From: Methylotenera oryzisoli
GTDB taxonomy: Bacteria > Pseudomonadota > Gammaproteobacteria > Burkholderiales > Methylophilaceae
Length of the DNA stretch: 64,000 nucleotides
Assembly (NCBI GenBank): GCA_945881735.1
Contig: CAMCVF010000001.1
Span: forward strand, 62,001 to 126,000
Direction of reading: 5' to 3'
Part shown: positions 23,707 through 33,941 of the stretch, in pieces
Position numbering within the stretch: the stretch's first letter is position 1
Layout: every line of letters starts with the position of its first letter
Position numbers and translations under genes: made by a program
The notes under the pieces: generated by a model
Told to the model about the DNA's origin: nothing
The model's database searches: none
The model's input: the letters and a program-made list of their open reading frames with translations, nothing else

Positions 23707-24201
23707 ATGAAATTATTAAAAGCACTTTTTACAGTTTTGGCTTTAAGCTTATCAATGCACGCCTTTGCAATGACAGATGATGAATCAGTTGAATTTAGCG
23801 ATGCGGTTGGTAAGGGCGATATGAAAATTGTCAAAAGATACGTGGCAAATGACGCAAAAGTAGTTAATGAGAAATTCTTTGCTTGGACTCCAATCCAAAT
23901 GGCGGCCACTAAAGGTCAATTTGAAATGGTGAAGTACTTACTTGAAAAAGGTGCTGATAAAGACTATGTTCATCCAATCACTAAAATGACGGCATTTCAT
24001 TTAGCGGCTTTTGACAATCATGCTGATATTGTTAAATATCTAGCTGAAAAAGGAGCTGACATAAACAAAAAAATGAAAGCAGACATTTCAATTCTTCGCG
24101 TTATGAAAGATGAAGGTGAGCGCGGTGCCGATATGGTTAAATTATTAACATCACTTGGCGTTAAAGATGATGGCTGCCTAGAAGAAAAATGCTTTGAGTA
24201 G
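23707..24201 (+). CDS. Exported ankyrin-repeat protein
   Basis: A 164-residue protein with a signal peptide (MKLLKALFTVLALSLSMHAFA) and about three or four ankyrin repeats (for example TPIQMAATKGQFEMVKYLLEKGAD and TAFHLAAFDNHADIVKYL, both landmarks only). Ankyrin repeats mediate protein binding; in proteobacterial periplasm such small proteins often accompany redox or catalase genes, but no partner is proven here. The ATG has a GGAG RBS nine bases upstream, better than earlier in-frame codons that overlap purL. A C-terminal Cys pair (DGCLEEKCFE) could form a disulphide. A second exported ankyrin protein is at 33 kb. Confidence 0.88.
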   Translation: MKLLKALFTVLALSLSMHAFAMTDDESVEFSDAVGKGDMKIVKRYVANDAKVVNEKFFAWTPIQMAATKGQFEMVKYLLEKGADKDYVHPITKMTAFHLAAFDNHADIVKYLAEKGADINKKMKADISILRVMKDEGERGADMVKLLTSLGVKDDGCLEEKCFE

Positions 24202-24286: not shown

Positions 24287-24682
24287 ATGATTAGTAAAAC
24301 ATTCTTTTCAAGAAAGTTACTATTAAGTGTCATCCTAATATCCTCATTTGACTTGCCAATTGTAGGTAAAGCCAATGAGGATATTTCTTTTTCAGCGCCT
24401 AATTTACACACCCAAACCCTTGCTGCTTCATGTGCGGCTTGCCATGGTAGCAACGGTAATGCATTAGTTGGAAATGCTGTATTAGCTGGGATGGATAAAA
24501 GCTATTTTATTAGCCAAATGCTGGCTTTTAAAAATGGTGATAAATCCGCCACGGTTATGCATCGTCATGCCAAGGGTCTGCAGGTGGAGGAAATCAATGA
24601 ACTAGCCGCCTATTTTGCTGCGCAGAAAAAAGTGCCCGCCATAAGCCCAGCTATGCAACGCTTGAAGGCCAATCATGACTAA
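24287..24682 (+). CDS. Periplasmic monohaem c-type cytochrome (FccA-like)
   Basis: A 131-residue exported protein with an N-terminal signal (hydrophobic to about residue 28) and one haem-binding CAACH (Cys49, Cys52, His53). Met91 in the ATVMHRHAKG segment is the likely sixth ligand. Its 3' end overlaps the next gene by 8 bases, and that gene encodes a flavocytochrome c sulfide dehydrogenase-like flavoprotein, so this is probably its cytochrome subunit, taking electrons from sulfide oxidation. FccA proteins in phototrophs are often dihaem; this one has a single haem site. Confidence 0.88.
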   Translation: MISKTFFSRKLLLSVILISSFDLPIVGKANEDISFSAPNLHTQTLAASCAACHGSNGNALVGNAVLAGMDKSYFISQMLAFKNGDKSATVMHRHAKGLQVEEINELAAYFAAQKKVPAISPAMQRLKANHD

Positions 24683-25982
24683 ACTAAAATCAATTAACAC
24701 AGCAAGCAATAGCCGCCGCCATTTTATTAAAGCAATTAGCGCAAGTGGCTTATTAGTATCTAGCTATTCATTATTAAGTGCTTGTGCCAATAACACAAAA
24801 AAGTCGGCTACAGGTACCGTAGTGATAATTGGTGGCGGTTATGCGGGTGCAACGGCTGCCAAATATATTCGCCTGTGGAGCGTAAACAATATTGATGTAG
24901 TGTTGATTGAAAAATCCACTCAATTTGTATCTTGCCCGCTCAGTAATTTAGTGCTTGGTGGTAGCAAAACCATTAATGACCTTACATTTGGCTACGATTT
25001 AGCCAAAAAAAATCATGGCGTGCAGTGGATTAATGATGAAGTAACCGTGATTGATACCGCCAATAAAAAAATAAGCATGAAGCGCGGCGAAATCAGTTTT
25101 GATCGCTTAATTATCGCGCCTGGCATTGATTTTATCTATGATTCGCTGCCTAATTTGCAATCAACTGAAGCACAGAAAGCAATACCACATGCCTGGAAAG
25201 CAGGCTGGCAAACGGTTAATTTGCGTTCACAATTAGAAAGCATGTTTAATGGGGGCGTGTTTGTGATGAATGTACCCAAAGCACCCTACCGTTGCCCGCC
25301 CGGTCCTTATGAGCGCGCGTGTCAGGTGGCCAGCTATTTCAAGAACCATAAACCTAAAAGCAAAGTGATTGTGCTGGATGCCAACCCAGAAATCACCTCT
25401 AAAAAAGGGTTATTTACTAAAGTATTTAATGAGATGTACGCAGGCATCATTGATTACCGCCCTAACAATTTAGTACTAGATGTAGATATTAAAACAAAAA
25501 CAGTGAAAACCGATTTTGATACAGTGTCTGCCGATGTGCTGAATATTATTCCGCCACAACGCGCAGGCAAACCAGCGCAAATGGCAGGCCTAAACAATAT
25601 TGATAAAAGCTGGTGCGAAGTGGATTTTTTAACTTATGAATCCAAGATAGCGCCATATATTCATGTGATTGGCGATTCTGTTTCAGCTGCACTGCCAAAG
25701 TCAGCACATATGGCCACCAGCCAAGCACGGGTTTGCGCCAGCGCAATTGTAGAGTTAATGCAACATCGTGTGCCAGATCAAAACCCCGTTTTTGCCAACA
25801 CTTGCTACAGCTATGTGGATGACAAACAAGCCATGCATGTAGCCAATGTTTACCGCTATGATGAATCAAAAAAAATCATGGTATCGGCTGAGGGTGGCGG
25901 CGTTTCGCTTAAACCTTCAGAGCTAGAAGGCGGCTACGCAAGCGCATGGGCCACTAATATATGGTCAGATGTGTTAACTTAA
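24675..25982 (+). CDS. Flavocytochrome c sulfide dehydrogenase-like flavoprotein (FccB family)
   Basis: A 435-residue FAD protein predicted to be exported by Tat (SRRHFIKA near residues 13-20). The dinucleotide fold GGGYAGATAA lies near 53-62. Three Cys positions known from Allochromatium FCSD are present: Cys87 (SCPLSN, covalent FAD attachment) and the redox pair Cys207 (YRCPPGPYE) and Cys377 (NTCYSY). The C-terminal FCSD domain is complete. The expected reaction is oxidation of sulfide to sulfur or polysulfide with electrons passed to the cytochrome encoded just upstream (8-base overlap). Substrate is inferred from the family; SoxF-like roles are an alternative. Confidence 0.9.
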   Translation: MTKLKSINTASNSRRHFIKAISASGLLVSSYSLLSACANNTKKSATGTVVIIGGGYAGATAAKYIRLWSVNNIDVVLIEKSTQFVSCPLSNLVLGGSKTINDLTFGYDLAKKNHGVQWINDEVTVIDTANKKISMKRGEISFDRLIIAPGIDFIYDSLPNLQSTEAQKAIPHAWKAGWQTVNLRSQLESMFNGGVFVMNVPKAPYRCPPGPYERACQVASYFKNHKPKSKVIVLDANPEITSKKGLFTKVFNEMYAGIIDYRPNNLVLDVDIKTKTVKTDFDTVSADVLNIIPPQRAGKPAQMAGLNNIDKSWCEVDFLTYESKIAPYIHVIGDSVSAALPKSAHMATSQARVCASAIVELMQHRVPDQNPVFANTCYSYVDDKQAMHVANVYRYDESKKIMVSAEGGGVSLKPSELEGGYASAWATNIWSDVLT

Positions 25983-26013
25983 GCTTTTATCTTTACTTAA
26001 TAGTCTCCATCAA

Positions 26014-27231
26014 ATGCTTAGTGCTTTTTTTAATCAGCTTGGCTTATACCTTAAAATTGGTTTATGTCAGATAGCGAGTATTGGTTGTGCTTATGGCGCA
26101 GAATCGATAGATCCGCCCAATCAATTAGCTCTTAATTTGCCGTCAGGCTTTGAAGCAAGCATCTATGCAAAATTGGCTAAAAACTATGGTCAGCCGCGCA
26201 TGATGGCACTGGATAAAGAGGGGCGACTATTTGTTGCTTTAGGCTCATCTAACCAAGTGCTCATGCTGCCAGATGCCAATAAAGACGGCATTGCTGAAAA
26301 CCCTGTTGTGATTGCAAACAATCTAAACGCACCAAATGGTTTGGCTTTTATAAACGATGATTTGCTGATTACAAACCAAGACTCAGTTGTTAAATTAACG
26401 CAAAAAAATGGAGTTTGGTCTGCACCACAGCCGTTTATTAGCAATTTGGCTTTTGGGCACCATACTGTTAAAACCATTAAATTGGGCCCAGATAATCATC
26501 TATATATCAATATTGGCTCAAGCTGTAATGTATGTTTAGAGGAAAATGCAACGCGCGCTACTATTCAACGCTACACTGCAGAGGGCAGGCCTGCAGGTAG
26601 CTTGATCACACTGGGCCGACATGCACCCGACCCCACATGGGCAAAAGGTTTGCGCAATAGCCAAGGTTTTGCATGGCACCCGAAAACGGGCGCCATGTTT
26701 GCCACTAATAATGGTTCTGATATGCGGTCCAGCACCAAAAACGGCAAAGTAAACGACGAAATTCCACCTGAACATTTAAACCGTATCGAATCTGGCAAGC
26801 ATTATGGCTGGCCTTATTGCTGGGGTAACCCCGATAATTTAAAAGCAATGGTTGAAGACCCGAATTTCATCGGTGCTGAAAATTTTTGCAAAACGGCAAC
26901 GCCGCCTGCTATTACGTTTATTTCGCATTCAACCCCTATTGGCATTAGCTTTTTAGATAAAACCAATTGGCCTGCTGAATATAAGAATGATGCGATTGTG
27001 GCTTTGCATGGGTCATGGAATCGCCAAAATCCTAGCGGCTACAAATTGGTACGTGTTAAATTTAATGGTGATACACCAACAGAAGTGACTGACTTTGCCA
27101 CGGGATGGTTAAACGGTAAAAGTGTTTGGGGGCGACCGACAGATGTTATCGTTGGCACAGATGGCGCATTGTATGTGTCAGATGACCGCGCAGGCTATAT
27201 CTACCGTATTGGCTATCAGCCAAACAAATAG
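26014..27231 (+). CDS. Exported sorbosone/glucose dehydrogenase-like beta-propeller
   Basis: A 405-residue protein of the PQQ-dependent soluble glucose/sorbosone dehydrogenase (GSDH) family. A hydrophobic N-terminus (to about residue 28, ending near CAYGAE) suggests export. Family landmarks include GHHTVKT, LRNSQGFAWHP, HYGWPYCWGN, HGSWNR and GRPTDVIVG, spread across the six-bladed propeller. Many relatives are annotated L-sorbosone dehydrogenase without proof; PQQ binding, substrate and electron acceptor are not known. It starts 31 bases after the FccB-like stop, so it shares a transcript with the cytochrome and flavoprotein genes. Confidence 0.86.
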   Translation: MLSAFFNQLGLYLKIGLCQIASIGCAYGAESIDPPNQLALNLPSGFEASIYAKLAKNYGQPRMMALDKEGRLFVALGSSNQVLMLPDANKDGIAENPVVIANNLNAPNGLAFINDDLLITNQDSVVKLTQKNGVWSAPQPFISNLAFGHHTVKTIKLGPDNHLYINIGSSCNVCLEENATRATIQRYTAEGRPAGSLITLGRHAPDPTWAKGLRNSQGFAWHPKTGAMFATNNGSDMRSSTKNGKVNDEIPPEHLNRIESGKHYGWPYCWGNPDNLKAMVEDPNFIGAENFCKTATPPAITFISHSTPIGISFLDKTNWPAEYKNDAIVALHGSWNRQNPSGYKLVRVKFNGDTPTEVTDFATGWLNGKSVWGRPTDVIVGTDGALYVSDDRAGYIYRIGYQPNK

Positions 27232-27265
27232 ACGCAAACCGAATTAATAACAAGGCAATAATTGC

Positions 27266-27865
27266 ATGATTAAAAATCGCTTTATACAAATAGTGACTTG
27301 CTTTATTACAAGTGCATTTATTAATAATATGGTACTAGCGCAAGGCGCCAAATTGCCAGGCAATATCGCGGTACATATTGCAAAACTGCACTATGAACAT
27401 CCTGTGCGCCTACTGCACCCTTATTTGGATGTATGGCATATGAAAGGCCCACTGGCTGAAAAGGCCGCACTTAAAGAATTGGGGAAACGATTCGCCAATA
27501 TACATTTATGCAAAAGCGGTGAAAGCACCAATGTGGTTTTATTGCTTGAGCCGCATATGTTTTATAACGCTCAGTTGCGGGTTTTTCATGGTGAAATCAT
27601 TGCCAGAGTGTTTACTAATGTCTCAGCATCTGATTTAGAAAATCCGATTGTAAGTATTAAAAAACAAGCTCAACAAAATGGTGAGCTTGGCATTAAGCCT
27701 GAATTTTATATGGAAAAAGCCTACGCAAAAGCAATGGATAAAGTCATTAAAAAACTAGAAATTGATAAATCATTTTTAGCCGCAATTGATACCACCGCCA
27801 ATGGCAGCGCAGTCAATCTATGCTCAGCTTTAGATGATTTGCCATTTAGCAAAATTTACTACTAA
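27266..27865 (+). CDS. Exported protein of unknown function
   Basis: I do not recognise this 199-residue protein. It has a signal peptide (cleavage near residue 25, VLAQ-GA), then a mixed alpha/beta soluble region with many His and aromatic residues in the first half (HYEHPVRLLHP, WHMKGP, LLEPHMFYN) and a single late Cys pair candidate (CKSGES and NLCSAL). There are no transmembrane segments and no haem or FAD motif. It lies 34 bases after the propeller gene and 38 before another propeller gene, so it is probably co-transcribed and periplasmic. Confidence 0.75.
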   Translation: MIKNRFIQIVTCFITSAFINNMVLAQGAKLPGNIAVHIAKLHYEHPVRLLHPYLDVWHMKGPLAEKAALKELGKRFANIHLCKSGESTNVVLLLEPHMFYNAQLRVFHGEIIARVFTNVSASDLENPIVSIKKQAQQNGELGIKPEFYMEKAYAKAMDKVIKKLEIDKSFLAAIDTTANGSAVNLCSALDDLPFSKIYY

Positions 27866-27903
27866 TTTTATTTAAACGCACCACCTTAAGAAAGGTTATA
27901 GAT

Positions 27904-28740
27904 ATGAAAAAAACACTATTAGCATTGGCTTTACTGCAAGCATTAACCGTGCATGCCATAGAGCCAATTCCTACCAAAATTACAGGGCTAAAAACACCAG
28001 AATCTGTTGTACAAGGCAAAGATGGCAGCATTTATATTTCTGAAATTGGAGAGTTTGGCAAAGATGGTGATGGCCAAATTAGCAAAGTGGACAAAAAAGG
28101 TAACATAGCCGTGTTTGCAAAAGGCATGGATGACCCAAAAGGTTTAGCCATGATAGGTGACAAATTATATGTGGCAGATAAAAACCGTGTGCTAGAAGTA
28201 AGCAAAGACGGCTCTTGGCAAGTATATGGTGCGCAAATGGCTTTTCCGAGTACACCTGTTTTTTTAAATGATATTGAAGCGGACAAATTAGGCAGTTTAT
28301 ATGTATCTGATAGCGGTGATTTAAAATCAGGCGGGCAAATTTATAAAATCGCTAAAGGTGGTGCACCAATTACCCTGATTGCGGATAGCAAAAACCCCGA
28401 TATTTTGGCGCCCAATGGTTTGCTGTTCGAAGGCCGCAATCATTTATTATCTGTCGATTTTGAATCTGGTATTTTGTATCGCGTGAATTTAAGCACTGGG
28501 GCAACTACTAAAATAGCCGAAGGCTTTGGTGGCGGTGACGGTATAGTTAAAACCAAAGCAGGAAAAATCATTATAAGCGACTGGAAAACGGGCAAGATTT
28601 ATGAACTGGTGGCAGGTAAAGCGCGCTTGATGAAAGAAGGCTATCAAGCAGCTGCCGACATTGCATTAACAAACGATGGAAAATATTTAATGGTGCCCGA
28701 TATGAAAGCAGGCGAATTAGATTTTGTTGAAATCAAATAA
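27904..28740 (+). CDS. Exported SMP-30/NHL-like beta-propeller protein
   Basis: A 278-residue protein with a signal peptide (to about residue 19, LTVHA-IE) and repeated propeller blades of the SMP-30/gluconolactonase/NHL type (GSIYISEIG, DKLYVADKNRV, GSLYVSDSGD, APNGLLFEG, GKIIISDWKTGKI). A Glu after the first strand (TPESVV), an Asn (APNGL) and an Asp (ISDW) could form the SMP-30 metal site. A lactonase or periplasmic binding role is possible; neither is shown. AAGAAAGG precedes the ATG as a good RBS. It closes the redox/propeller group. Confidence 0.85.
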   Translation: MKKTLLALALLQALTVHAIEPIPTKITGLKTPESVVQGKDGSIYISEIGEFGKDGDGQISKVDKKGNIAVFAKGMDDPKGLAMIGDKLYVADKNRVLEVSKDGSWQVYGAQMAFPSTPVFLNDIEADKLGSLYVSDSGDLKSGGQIYKIAKGGAPITLIADSKNPDILAPNGLLFEGRNHLLSVDFESGILYRVNLSTGATTKIAEGFGGGDGIVKTKAGKIIISDWKTGKIYELVAGKARLMKEGYQAAADIALTNDGKYLMVPDMKAGELDFVEIK

Positions 28741-28742
28741 TC

Positions 28743-29537
28743 TTGTTATTAAGCAATATTGAATGCCGCAAAGCCGCACTAGATTTGCTTTGCGAACATG
28801 ACTCCTGCAGCAAAGCGGCAGGTGTATTGGCTTTAGGCAAAAATCCATCTGTTTTGATTGAGCCTTCAACACAATTCACCCCAACCGCAGCCATACCTGG
28901 CCGCCCGCTTAAACCAATACTAGTTAGGCCGCTTGCATTACCCAAACGTTCTATGCGCTCTATTGATGGCCGCGCCGCTTTGATTCACGCCTTGGCCCAT
29001 ATTGAGTTTAATGCGATTAATTTGGCGCTGGATGCCATTTGGCGTTTTGCTAATATGCCAGAAAACTACTACCGCGACTGGCTCAAAGTCGCAGCTGAAG
29101 AAGCCCATCATTTTTTACTCTTGAATGCGCACTTACAATCAATAGGCTATGAATACGGCAGTTTTAGCGGACACGATAGCTTATGGGAAATGGTGGACAG
29201 AACTAAAGACGATGTATTGGCACGCATGGCCTTGGTGCCGCGCACCATGGAAGCACGCGGTTTAGATGCATCGCCGCAATTGCATAATAAATTCATGCAG
29301 GTTGGCGATTTAAAAATGGGTGAAATCTTAACGATTATTTTGCGCGATGAAATTGGCCATGTGGCGATTGGCAATATTTGGTTTAATTGGTTATGCCAGC
29401 AGCGAAAATTAGAGCCGATTGCTACGTTTGAAACGTTGAGAAATCAATATGCCGCGCCCAAATTGCGCCCACCTTTTAATATGGAGGCAAGGCGACTTGC
29501 TGGCTTTAACGAAGCCGAGTTAGCCTTATTAAACTAG
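28743..29537 (+). CDS. DUF455 ferritin-like protein
   Basis: A 264-residue DUF455 protein. Di-iron-type helix motifs are visible: HIEFNAINLALDAIWRF, AEEAHHFLLL and DEIGHVAIGN, the ferritin-like EXXH pattern. Function is unassigned; relatives are sometimes linked to MiaE-like hydroxylation. The start is a TTG two bases after the previous stop. No in-frame ATG is near, and the TTG gives the family N-terminus (ECRKAALDLL). There is no signal peptide, so it is cytoplasmic unlike its upstream neighbours. It converges on serB with 13 bases between stops. Confidence 0.87.
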   Translation: MLLSNIECRKAALDLLCEHDSCSKAAGVLALGKNPSVLIEPSTQFTPTAAIPGRPLKPILVRPLALPKRSMRSIDGRAALIHALAHIEFNAINLALDAIWRFANMPENYYRDWLKVAAEEAHHFLLLNAHLQSIGYEYGSFSGHDSLWEMVDRTKDDVLARMALVPRTMEARGLDASPQLHNKFMQVGDLKMGEILTIILRDEIGHVAIGNIWFNWLCQQRKLEPIATFETLRNQYAAPKLRPPFNMEARRLAGFNEAELALLN

Positions 29538-32981: not shown

Positions 32982-33941
32982 TTGTTGAAAATAAACAATA
33001 TAAATATCACCAACATGATGGTGGCTTTAGTACTTTGTGTTGCTTCGCAATTAAGCATGGCGGCAGAAATTCCGTATTTGCTAACGGCTGCTTCTAAGGG
33101 CGATTTAACAACTGTTAAAGCGATGTTAAACGGCGGTGCCAACGCCAATACCAAAGATGAAAACGATATTACTGCATTGATGTATGCGGCACGCAAAGAC
33201 CAAGCTGAAGTGGTTGCCGCTTTATTAGAAAAGGGCGCCGAGGTTAACGCCAAAGATAAAGGCGGCTGGACTGCGCTGATGTTTGCCTCGAAAAAAAATT
33301 ACATTAAGACAATTAAAGTGCTACTTGAAAAAGGCGCAGACCCTAAAATTCGCGATGAAAGTGGCTGGAGTGCTTTTGGAATGGCCGCTACAGCGGGCCA
33401 TGCCGATGCGGTTAACTTAATTATTCAGCATGGAGTAGATGCCAACGCAAAATCGGATGATGGTAAAACAGCGTTGATGTATGCTGCCAAAAGTGGTGAT
33501 GTGCCGACTATTTCATCACTAATGTCAAAAGGTGCACTGCCGAATGTAGCCGACAGATTAGGCGCTACACCATTGATGTATGCTGCGCGTGAAGGCCATG
33601 CGCCAGCCGTAACATACATGATTGAAAAAGGTGCCAATATGAATCTGCAAGATCAATCAGACTGGACGGCATTGACGTGGGCGATTAAAAAATCGCAACT
33701 AGAAACCGCCAAAGTGCTCATTAATAAAGGCGCAGATGTCAATCATGAGGACTCTGAAGGCACGCCATTGTTGCAGCTTGCGGTTAGTAACGGTTCTGCA
33801 GAATTAGTATCATTGTTACTGGACCACAAAGCAGATGTAAAAGCACGCGATAAATACGGCTTAACCGCTTATGTATATGCGCTTAAAAAAGGTGATGTAG
33901 AAATTGTTCGCTTGATTAAAGATGCTGGCGGCAAATATTAA
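32982..33941 (+). CDS. Exported ankyrin-repeat protein, eight or so repeats
   Basis: A 319-residue protein with an N-terminal signal (hydrophobic MMVALVLCVASQ, cleavage near AAE) and a solenoid of about eight 33-residue ankyrin repeats recognised by TALMYAARKDQAEVV, LLEKGAEVNAKD and ATPLMYAAREGHAP-type units. The start is TTG (32982 or 32985), with AAGG upstream, two bases after sucD; ATG 33015 is a later alternative. It is probably translated from the sucCD transcript. Binding partner is unknown. It is longer than the ankyrin protein at 23.7 kb but shares the exported architecture. Confidence 0.9.
   Translation: MLKINNINITNMMVALVLCVASQLSMAAEIPYLLTAASKGDLTTVKAMLNGGANANTKDENDITALMYAARKDQAEVVAALLEKGAEVNAKDKGGWTALMFASKKNYIKTIKVLLEKGADPKIRDESGWSAFGMAATAGHADAVNLIIQHGVDANAKSDDGKTALMYAAKSGDVPTISSLMSKGALPNVADRLGATPLMYAAREGHAPAVTYMIEKGANMNLQDQSDWTALTWAIKKSQLETAKVLINKGADVNHEDSEGTPLLQLAVSNGSAELVSLLLDHKADVKARDKYGLTAYVYALKKGDVEIVRLIKDAGGKY

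Follow-up and report, generated by a model that had tools for sequence, protein, structure and literature searches.

Gene content of the block

The window analysed here, a stretch of 64,000 nucleotides from Methylotenera oryzisoli (Methylophilaceae; contig CAMCVF010000001.1, positions 62,001 to 126,000), carries on its forward strand a compact block of genes for exported proteins, in which a flavocytochrome c sulfide dehydrogenase (FCSD)-type pair stands beside two beta-propellers and a protein of no known family. The pair consists of FccA, a monohaem cytochrome c recognized by its CxxCH motif and its relatives in the PDB (24287..24682), and of FccB, a flavoprotein with a twin-arginine signal assigned by Pfam and PDB matches and by conserved cysteines (24675..25982). 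They are followed by a GSDH-type propeller (26014..27231), which its Pfam match and cofactor contacts designate as a probable pyrroloquinoline quinone (PQQ)/calcium dehydrogenase resembling the fungal AA12 pyranose dehydrogenase, by a protein of 199 residues devoid of a lipobox and assigned to no family, for which a fold could be predicted (27266..27865), and by an SMP-30/DFPase-type propeller, hereafter SMP, a probable calcium-dependent lactonase in view of its Pfam SGL domain, metal quartet and predicted fold (27904..28740). These coordinates confirm the five consecutive same-strand genes and the 8-base overlap between FccA and FccB reported by the original prediction, which had been made from the letters without database searches; with open reading frame (ORF) starts chosen mechanically, the later gaps in the row measure 31, 34 and 38 bases. 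Export was judged by eye from the twin-arginine motif of FccB and the hydrophobic N-termini of the other block proteins.

The block extends further on both sides, by two genes that the original prediction had missed. An exported ankyrin-repeat protein (23707..24201, forward strand; Pfam Ank_4 2.3e-20, translated from 23704) stands at its head and ends 85 bases before FccA, with purL as its neighbour on the other side in relatives too, and an ORF with a DUF455 domain (28743..29537, forward strand; Pfam DUF455 7.4e-91, TTG start picked mechanically) begins 2 bases after SMP and is possibly co-transcribed with the block. The ankyrin gene is preceded by a presumed purL, and beyond DUF455 come a presumed serB on the opposite strand and then a presumed sucCD, all named from their sequences. 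Promoter-like and terminator-like patterns occurred at chance level in a pattern scan (21 versus 19.6 expected and 10 versus 9.9 expected, respectively) and thus lend no support to the single transcript that the original prediction had considered likely.

The explanation that we favour, and hold to be somewhat better than an even chance, is that two periplasmic electron-yielding modules of predicted activity, FccAB and GSDH with SMP, lie together on one chromosomal island and make up a block specific to Methylophilaceae. Each enzyme type is known, and it is the family-specific combination with one unnamed protein that appears new and unstudied.

Active sites and predicted folds

FccB passes the cut-offs of both Pfam FCSD_central (5.9e-43, 146.1 bits) and FCSD-flav_bind (2.1e-21, 76.5 bits) and matches the solved FCSDs 3vrd_B (E 3.1e-93), 1fcd_A and 5n1t_A. 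Its C87, C207 and C377 align with cysteines of 3vrd_B that presumably provide the linkage to flavin adenine dinucleotide (FAD) and the redox disulfide, and they are conserved in 93/93, 93/93 and 92/93 sequences (one gap), the twin-arginine motif being found in 91 of the 93 (two gaps). FccA matches Pfam Cytochrome_CBB3 only, under the cut-off (4.4e-5), and its PDB relatives are c4/FCSD cytochromes (1h1o_A, 5n1t_B and 1fcd_C); C49, C52 and H53 of the CxxCH motif and M91, the putative axial haem ligand, are identical in 92/92 proteins. Sharing the domains, the three active cysteines and the CxxCH partner cytochrome with the FccAB of 1fcd, 3vrd and 5n1t, FccA and FccB are by sequence a genuine FCSD-type pair, for which sulfide-dependent haem reduction is predicted, and the earlier description of a three-cysteine FCSD-like flavoprotein with a monohaem cytochrome holds. 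With its single CxxCH, the window FccA is short like 5n1t_B (102 residues; from Thioalkalivibrio paradoxus), whereas the 1fcd subunit is longer (174 residues) and presumably carries two haems.

Unlike known FCSD, the Methylophilaceae pair stands in a block with genes for ankyrin, GSDH, the 199-residue protein and SMP. A partial likeness exists in the thiocyanate dehydrogenase cluster of Thioalkalivibrio where, according to the available part of the report, fccAB has as neighbours a periplasmic enzyme, a small cytochrome and several genes to which no function is assigned (PMC5328954). Both arrangements place fccAB next to another periplasmic enzyme, but the Thioalkalivibrio cluster belongs to other organisms and the same part of the report names no GSDH-type or SMP-type gene and none for the 199-residue protein. 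A link to thiocyanate dehydrogenase, raised by 5n1t, was dropped, as the Pfam matches of the seven block proteins suggest none (no dedicated search was made).

The GSDH propeller largely exceeds the cut-off of Pfam GSDH (5.7e-19, 69 bits versus 25) and misses that of Pfam TrAA12 (19.8 bits versus 30.9), and for this reason we describe it as predicted to work like AA12 and do not class it as an AA12 member. An alignment that takes in most of the GSDH profile relates it to the PQQ domain in the pyranose dehydrogenase CcPDH from Coprinopsis (6jt5, E 3.2e-13). In the available part of the CcPDH study (PMC6881789), PQQ and calcium are contacted by R273, H363, R430, N431, D451, H539, H560, W563, N564 and R621, with W563 and N564 binding through main-chain amides and S449 binding calcium by its carbonyl, and His560 and Trp563/Asn564 are called distinctive of AA12 by the authors. 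In our own reading of the alignment (chain number equal to residue number minus 239), the ten counterparts are R62, H150, R214, N215, D236, H305, H332, W335, N336 and R374; all ten letters match, those distinctive of AA12 included, and a Gly takes the place of S449. Among domains with at least 300 aligned residues, the ten contacts are identical in 82/82 cluster GSDHs and in 8/8 of the GSDH-SMP fusions described below, and 15 proteins outside the family keep eight of them in all 15 cases and H332 and N336 in 14 each. Furthermore, a PqqE, an enzyme of PQQ synthesis, scores over its cut-off in the window genome (92.7 percent complete), in which the block GSDH is the sole PF07995 match. This protein is thus a probable PQQ/calcium dehydrogenase, similar by its propeller and the aligned CcPDH contacts to the fungal AA12 enzyme and to bacterial Asd/sGDH, but it differs from CcPDH by having neither a cytochrome b nor a cellulose-binding domain and by a conserved CxxC (C171, C174). 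A dependence of GSDH on lanthanides was also considered. The available part of PMC11996626 models a PedH-aligned glucose dehydrogenase; as we take that enzyme to be of the unrelated eight-bladed kind, nothing there bears on the question.

SMP passes the cut-off of Pfam SGL (SMP-30) with 7.7e-8 and 32.7 bits versus 26.3. Its putative metal quartet E33, N122, N171 and D212 is identical in 99/99 cluster proteins, 4/4 proteins from streamlined genomes and 8/8 fusions (domains with at least 220 aligned residues), and displays the same residue kinds in the same order as Glu18, Asn103, Asn154 and Asp204 of SMP30, whose counterparts in DFPase and PON are all metal ligands according to the available part of PMC3551927. 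The SMP model, with a predicted local distance difference test score (pLDDT) of 90.0, is closest to calcium-bound Cj1041c (Z 31.2, root-mean-square deviation (rmsd) 2.3 over 242), followed by a propeller-bearing SodC from Deinococcus (Z 30.1), by RPA3624, which is a lactonase (Z 29.6), and by DFPase (Z at most 29.3). Sharing a six-bladed fold and an E-N-N-D metal set with SMP-30/gluconolactonase, DFPase, PON, RPA3624 and Cj1041c, SMP is a probable calcium-dependent hydrolase and a predicted lactonase, and it represents a distinct subgroup which, in the class genomes searched, occurs outside Methylophilaceae only fused to GSDH. The earlier idea that the propellers might oxidise an organic substrate is therefore likely for GSDH, whose PQQ/calcium site is complete, but not for SMP, which resembles a hydrolase. 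The biochemical class of each enzyme of the block is well predicted. The Deinococcus Cu/Zn superoxide dismutase entry mentioned above, 9m58, carries a propeller very near to the SMP fold.

As the original prediction had stated, the 199-residue protein belongs to no known family: no Pfam family or PHROG was found, NCBIfam gave a chance-level match (E 0.078), and so did the PDB sequences (E 1.1; none with a profile). An AlphaFold2 (AF2) model built from 12 sequences (pLDDT 83.6, predicted template-modelling score (pTM) 0.77) matches DUF330 2iqi_F (Z 10.5, rmsd 3.5, 140 residues), 6lqh_A from a curli complex (Z 10.4), PelC 5t0z_D (Z 10.4), CsgG 4q79_H (Z 9.8), PqiC 8q2d_A (Z 8.7) and the LptDE chain 5ixm_D (Z 8.6), HpaA-like and ribosome-associated small folds matching as well at Z 7.0-7.3; with Foldseek the best E is 5.4e-5, and the query-normalised template-modelling (TM) scores of ranks 1-6 are 0.35-0.46. 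The predicted fold tentatively resembles that of the LptE, PelC, PqiC (DUF330) and CsgG N-domain lipoproteins (Z 8.4-10.5), which act as envelope accessory proteins, some of them ring-forming (PelC PDB entries are titled dodecamer). Unlike these lipoproteins, the window protein has no lipobox, no detected sequence similarity to them and, within the sets searched, a distribution restricted to Methylophilaceae. Of its homologues, 4/106 show a lipobox-like pattern, compared with 12/82 GSDH and 32/103 SMP. W57, C82 and N101 are conserved in 106/106 and C186 in 102/106 (4 gaps). The alignment A1 of this protein omits L062 (contains X) and L046. A scaffold role would be a guess, and we see only a slim chance that this protein founds a new periplasmic family of soluble PelC/CsgG-like scaffolds uniting a quinoprotein dehydrogenase, its lactonase and a flavocytochrome in an electron-harvesting assembly, with sulfide and sugar respired as extra donors by methylotrophs that grow on neither. 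Two small genomes (about 1.3 Mb) contain a diverged lone homologue (L034, L046), adjoining, by eye, glutathione-peroxidase-like and PEP-synthase-like genes, and several small-genome matches contain stop codons.

Conservation, separate losses and fusion

The order ankyrin, FccA, FccB, GSDH, 199-residue protein and SMP is conserved across Methylophilaceae. Indeed, the conserved co-occurrence of the five families in order, which the original prediction had named as its own check, was found: profile-scored gene order gives the complete row from FccA to SMP in 68 of 110 loci, window included, and in 0/110 is there a strand change among these genes and the ankyrin gene, so that the five-gene arrangement exceeds chance. 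This count omits lone homologues and fusion or other paralogues (L034, L035, L046, L237-L243 and L247) and treats split neighbours of the same type as a single gene (for GSDH, L062 and L220; for FccB, L225; for SMP, L214). Over 150 Methylophilaceae genomes, SMP has the widest retention (141 genomes, E <= 1e-30), followed by the 199-residue protein (125 genomes and 24/24 genera, E <= 0.001), FccB (101 genomes, E <= 1e-60) and GSDH (90 genomes, paralogues included, E <= 1e-60). The 199-residue protein was found in 0/368 further genomes of the class, the single match among 369 being that of the window itself. Some loci show insertions within the block, given here as examples and not as a full count: a major facilitator superfamily (MFS) transporter gene lies between the 199-residue protein and SMP in L032 (Pfam) and L044 (similar sequence), both without FccAB there, and spaces of unexplained content are seen in L070, L074 and L075. 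In L028 (Pfam), L054 and L064 (by eye), SMP is separated from DUF455 by an inserted pair of genes for a response regulator and a histidine kinase.

Losses were followed on a FastTree tree of purL from 98 loci, each having purL at nearly its full length, the ankyrin gene and a downstream gene, on which the minimum numbers of changes are 8 for FccB, 9 for GSDH, 9 for FccA, 3 for the 199-residue protein and 3 for SMP. FccB and GSDH are both present in 70 loci, FccB only in 18, GSDH only in 8 and neither in 2, the latter being the number expected under independence (10 x 20 / 98); a co-loss test on independent pairs gave no significance either way, with too few pairs. The FccAB and GSDH modules hence appear to have been lost independently. 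FccA is missing in 10/10 loci without FccB and in L060, where an FccB fragment of about 100 residues remains, from which it follows that FccA belongs with FccB and that GSDH, kept in 8 of these 10 loci, can occur where no FccA lies nearby. Among the genomes of the 20 loci lacking GSDH, 18 have no GSDH match anywhere (E <= 1e-60), and G043 and G110 possess a fusion paralogue.

These losses bear directly on the original proposal of a single pathway, in which the propellers would act on an organic substrate, by binding or oxidising it, and would supply FccA with electrons along with FccB. The gene order, the short gaps and the joint presence of all five genes in 68/110 loci speak in its favour, but the 8/98 loci with GSDH and without local FccAB argue against an obligatory hand-off to FccA, and the 18/98 with FccAB and without GSDH, the loss of FccA together with FccB and the resemblance of SMP to a hydrolase also speak against the proposal. 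As a caveat, three of the eight GSDH-only genomes (G062, G010 and G023) contain a more distant FccB elsewhere, the other five having none (E <= 1e-60). Among named public genomes, the best 80 of 584 confirmed FccB relatives comprise 14 with family flanks, while the titles of the remaining 66 are for the most part betaproteobacterial; in scanned flanks of up to 8 kb per side, often less, 0/66 of the latter have GSDH, the 199-residue protein or SMP near FccB (tblastn E <= 1e-5), and 62/66 have an FccA-like match beside it. A single pathway with one shared cytochrome as electron acceptor is not supported, and we regard it as quite improbable.

The strongest functional link found is not between FccAB and the propellers but between GSDH and SMP, by way of natural fusions. 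Relatives carry a paralogue with GSDH and SMP in one frame (L237, L238, L239, L240 and L242; 655-695 residues), and L238, the one tested, contains both Pfam GSDH and Pfam SGL. Matches to GSDH and SMP share one open frame of the same length in at least 22 of the 150 family genomes (with internal stops in G139). Furthermore, this SMP type occurs in 5/311 other genomes of the class (E <= 1e-40), in all five cases within GSDH fusions, one of these non-family fusions having been confirmed by Pfam. In trees of 54 chosen GSDH and 41 chosen SMP rows, the fused GSDH domains take two separate places, neither of them in the cluster clade (27 rows, support 100), and the fused SMP domains form one side (support 92, not starred). 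The pairing of GSDH with SMP is thus supported beyond gene order and, as the fusion links the functions of the two, a lactone-making dehydrogenase acting with a lactone-hydrolysing lactonase is the natural reading. Not every long GSDH is an SMP fusion (a full SMP domain is lacking in L261, L263 and L266). Titles and abstract openings in the literature, with subscription papers mostly outside their scope, hold no description of the five-gene set or of the GSDH-SMP fusion. The fusion gene stands divergent from a regulator in L237 (Pfam AraC_N and HTH) and in L239 and L242 (similar N-termini by eye), and in L241:3236-5107 the fusion partner of a GSDH-type propeller is a phosphatidylethanolamine-binding (PBP) domain.

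A two-module reading and its rivals

In the explanation that we favour, the first module would function as an FCSD, through the mechanism of these enzymes, which we assume to apply here: sulfide would be attacked by the C207-C377 disulfide beside the C87-bound FAD, haem c would receive the electrons of the FAD, and the sulfur, now zero-valent, would exit as polysulfide or on a carrier. In the second module, GSDH would use PQQ and calcium to oxidise an aldose or another cyclic hemiacetal to its lactone, with H150 as the base and R214 and N215 at the quinone, and SMP would hydrolyse the lactone to the acid at the calcium site formed by E33, N122, N171 and D212 and thereby drive the preceding oxidation. 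Electrons from both modules would enter at periplasmic cytochrome c, with no need for carbon to be taken up; the 199-residue protein would probably serve as a soluble scaffold or accessory, and the ankyrin protein probably as a periplasmic partner. Methylophilaceae live on one-carbon compounds, and the oxidation of sulfide and sugar would be a sensible auxiliary electron supply for such organisms.

Several observations weigh against this explanation. The link between the FccAB module and the GSDH and SMP module is one of neighbourhood only, in a sample biased by the gathering of loci mainly around matches to the 199-residue protein, and the housekeeping flanks purL, serB and sucCD are equally syntenic, so that gene order alone is no proof of a functional link. 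The redox genes are more dispensable than SMP (FccB 101 and GSDH 90 of 150 genomes, at cut-offs stricter than that of SMP), and SMP is present in 20/20 loci without GSDH, where it must have another role or another source of lactone. Moreover, the CcPDH ligands were mapped through a single HMMER alignment with an E of 3.2e-13 and a mean accuracy of 0.68, and non-enzymatic propellers nearly tie with DFPase as relatives of the SMP model (TRIM71 NHL, Z 28.9; designed Pizza, Z 28.6), which leaves the metal quartet alone to argue that SMP is an enzyme, the fold being insufficient.

Alternatively, the block may have no functional coupling and consist of unrelated periplasmic genes in an ancestrally stable stretch from purL to serB-sucCD. 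A second ankyrin gene keeps its order along with purL, serB, sucC and sucD, members of the block are lost separately, the promoter and terminator scan stays at chance level, and foreign genes or unexplained spaces intrude in the loci cited above. However, fusions of GSDH with SMP, seen both within the family and beyond it, connect at least those two proteins, and the absence of any strand change in 110 loci also speaks against such an assembly, which we consider rather unlikely.

Protection is another conceivable role, FccAB removing the sulfide that arises from the use of methylated sulfur compounds and the propellers detoxifying reactive aldehydes or lactones that form near methanol oxidation. 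In the available part of PMC4611497, Methylophilaceae are identified as degraders of dimethylsulphide (DMS) and flavocytochrome c sulphide dehydrogenase genes are enriched in the heavy metagenome fraction, which also held Thiobacillus, a possible source of these genes. The window genome furthermore has a SoxYZ pair and a SoxYZ fusion. But the block is family-wide, a spread broader than the known DMS use, and we give this role little credence.

If the two-module explanation is true, Methylophilaceae keep a conserved periplasmic apparatus that draws electrons from sulfide and aldoses, and their family-wide unnamed protein acquires a testable function. The recurrent GSDH-SMP fusion opens a direct way to the substrate of a group of bacterial AA12-like quinoproteins that are still uncharacterised.

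Elsewhere in the window genome, the SoxY-SoxZ pair (L279, G000:C10:59675-59959) lies beside a gene for a BepA-like M48 protease; its SoxZ is over the NCBIfam cut-off and its SoxY scores 123.1 versus a cut-off of 125, and SoxA, SoxX and SoxB are absent among the five proteins tested at this locus. The SoxYZ fusion (L280, G000:C5:41295-41624) is of the quinoprotein-dehydrogenase-associated type TIGR04557. Finally, the second ankyrin gene (32982-33941), which follows sucD in the window and has the same position in relatives, encodes a protein that is hydrophobic at its N-terminus and was assigned to the ankyrin-repeat type by its similarity to the first one.

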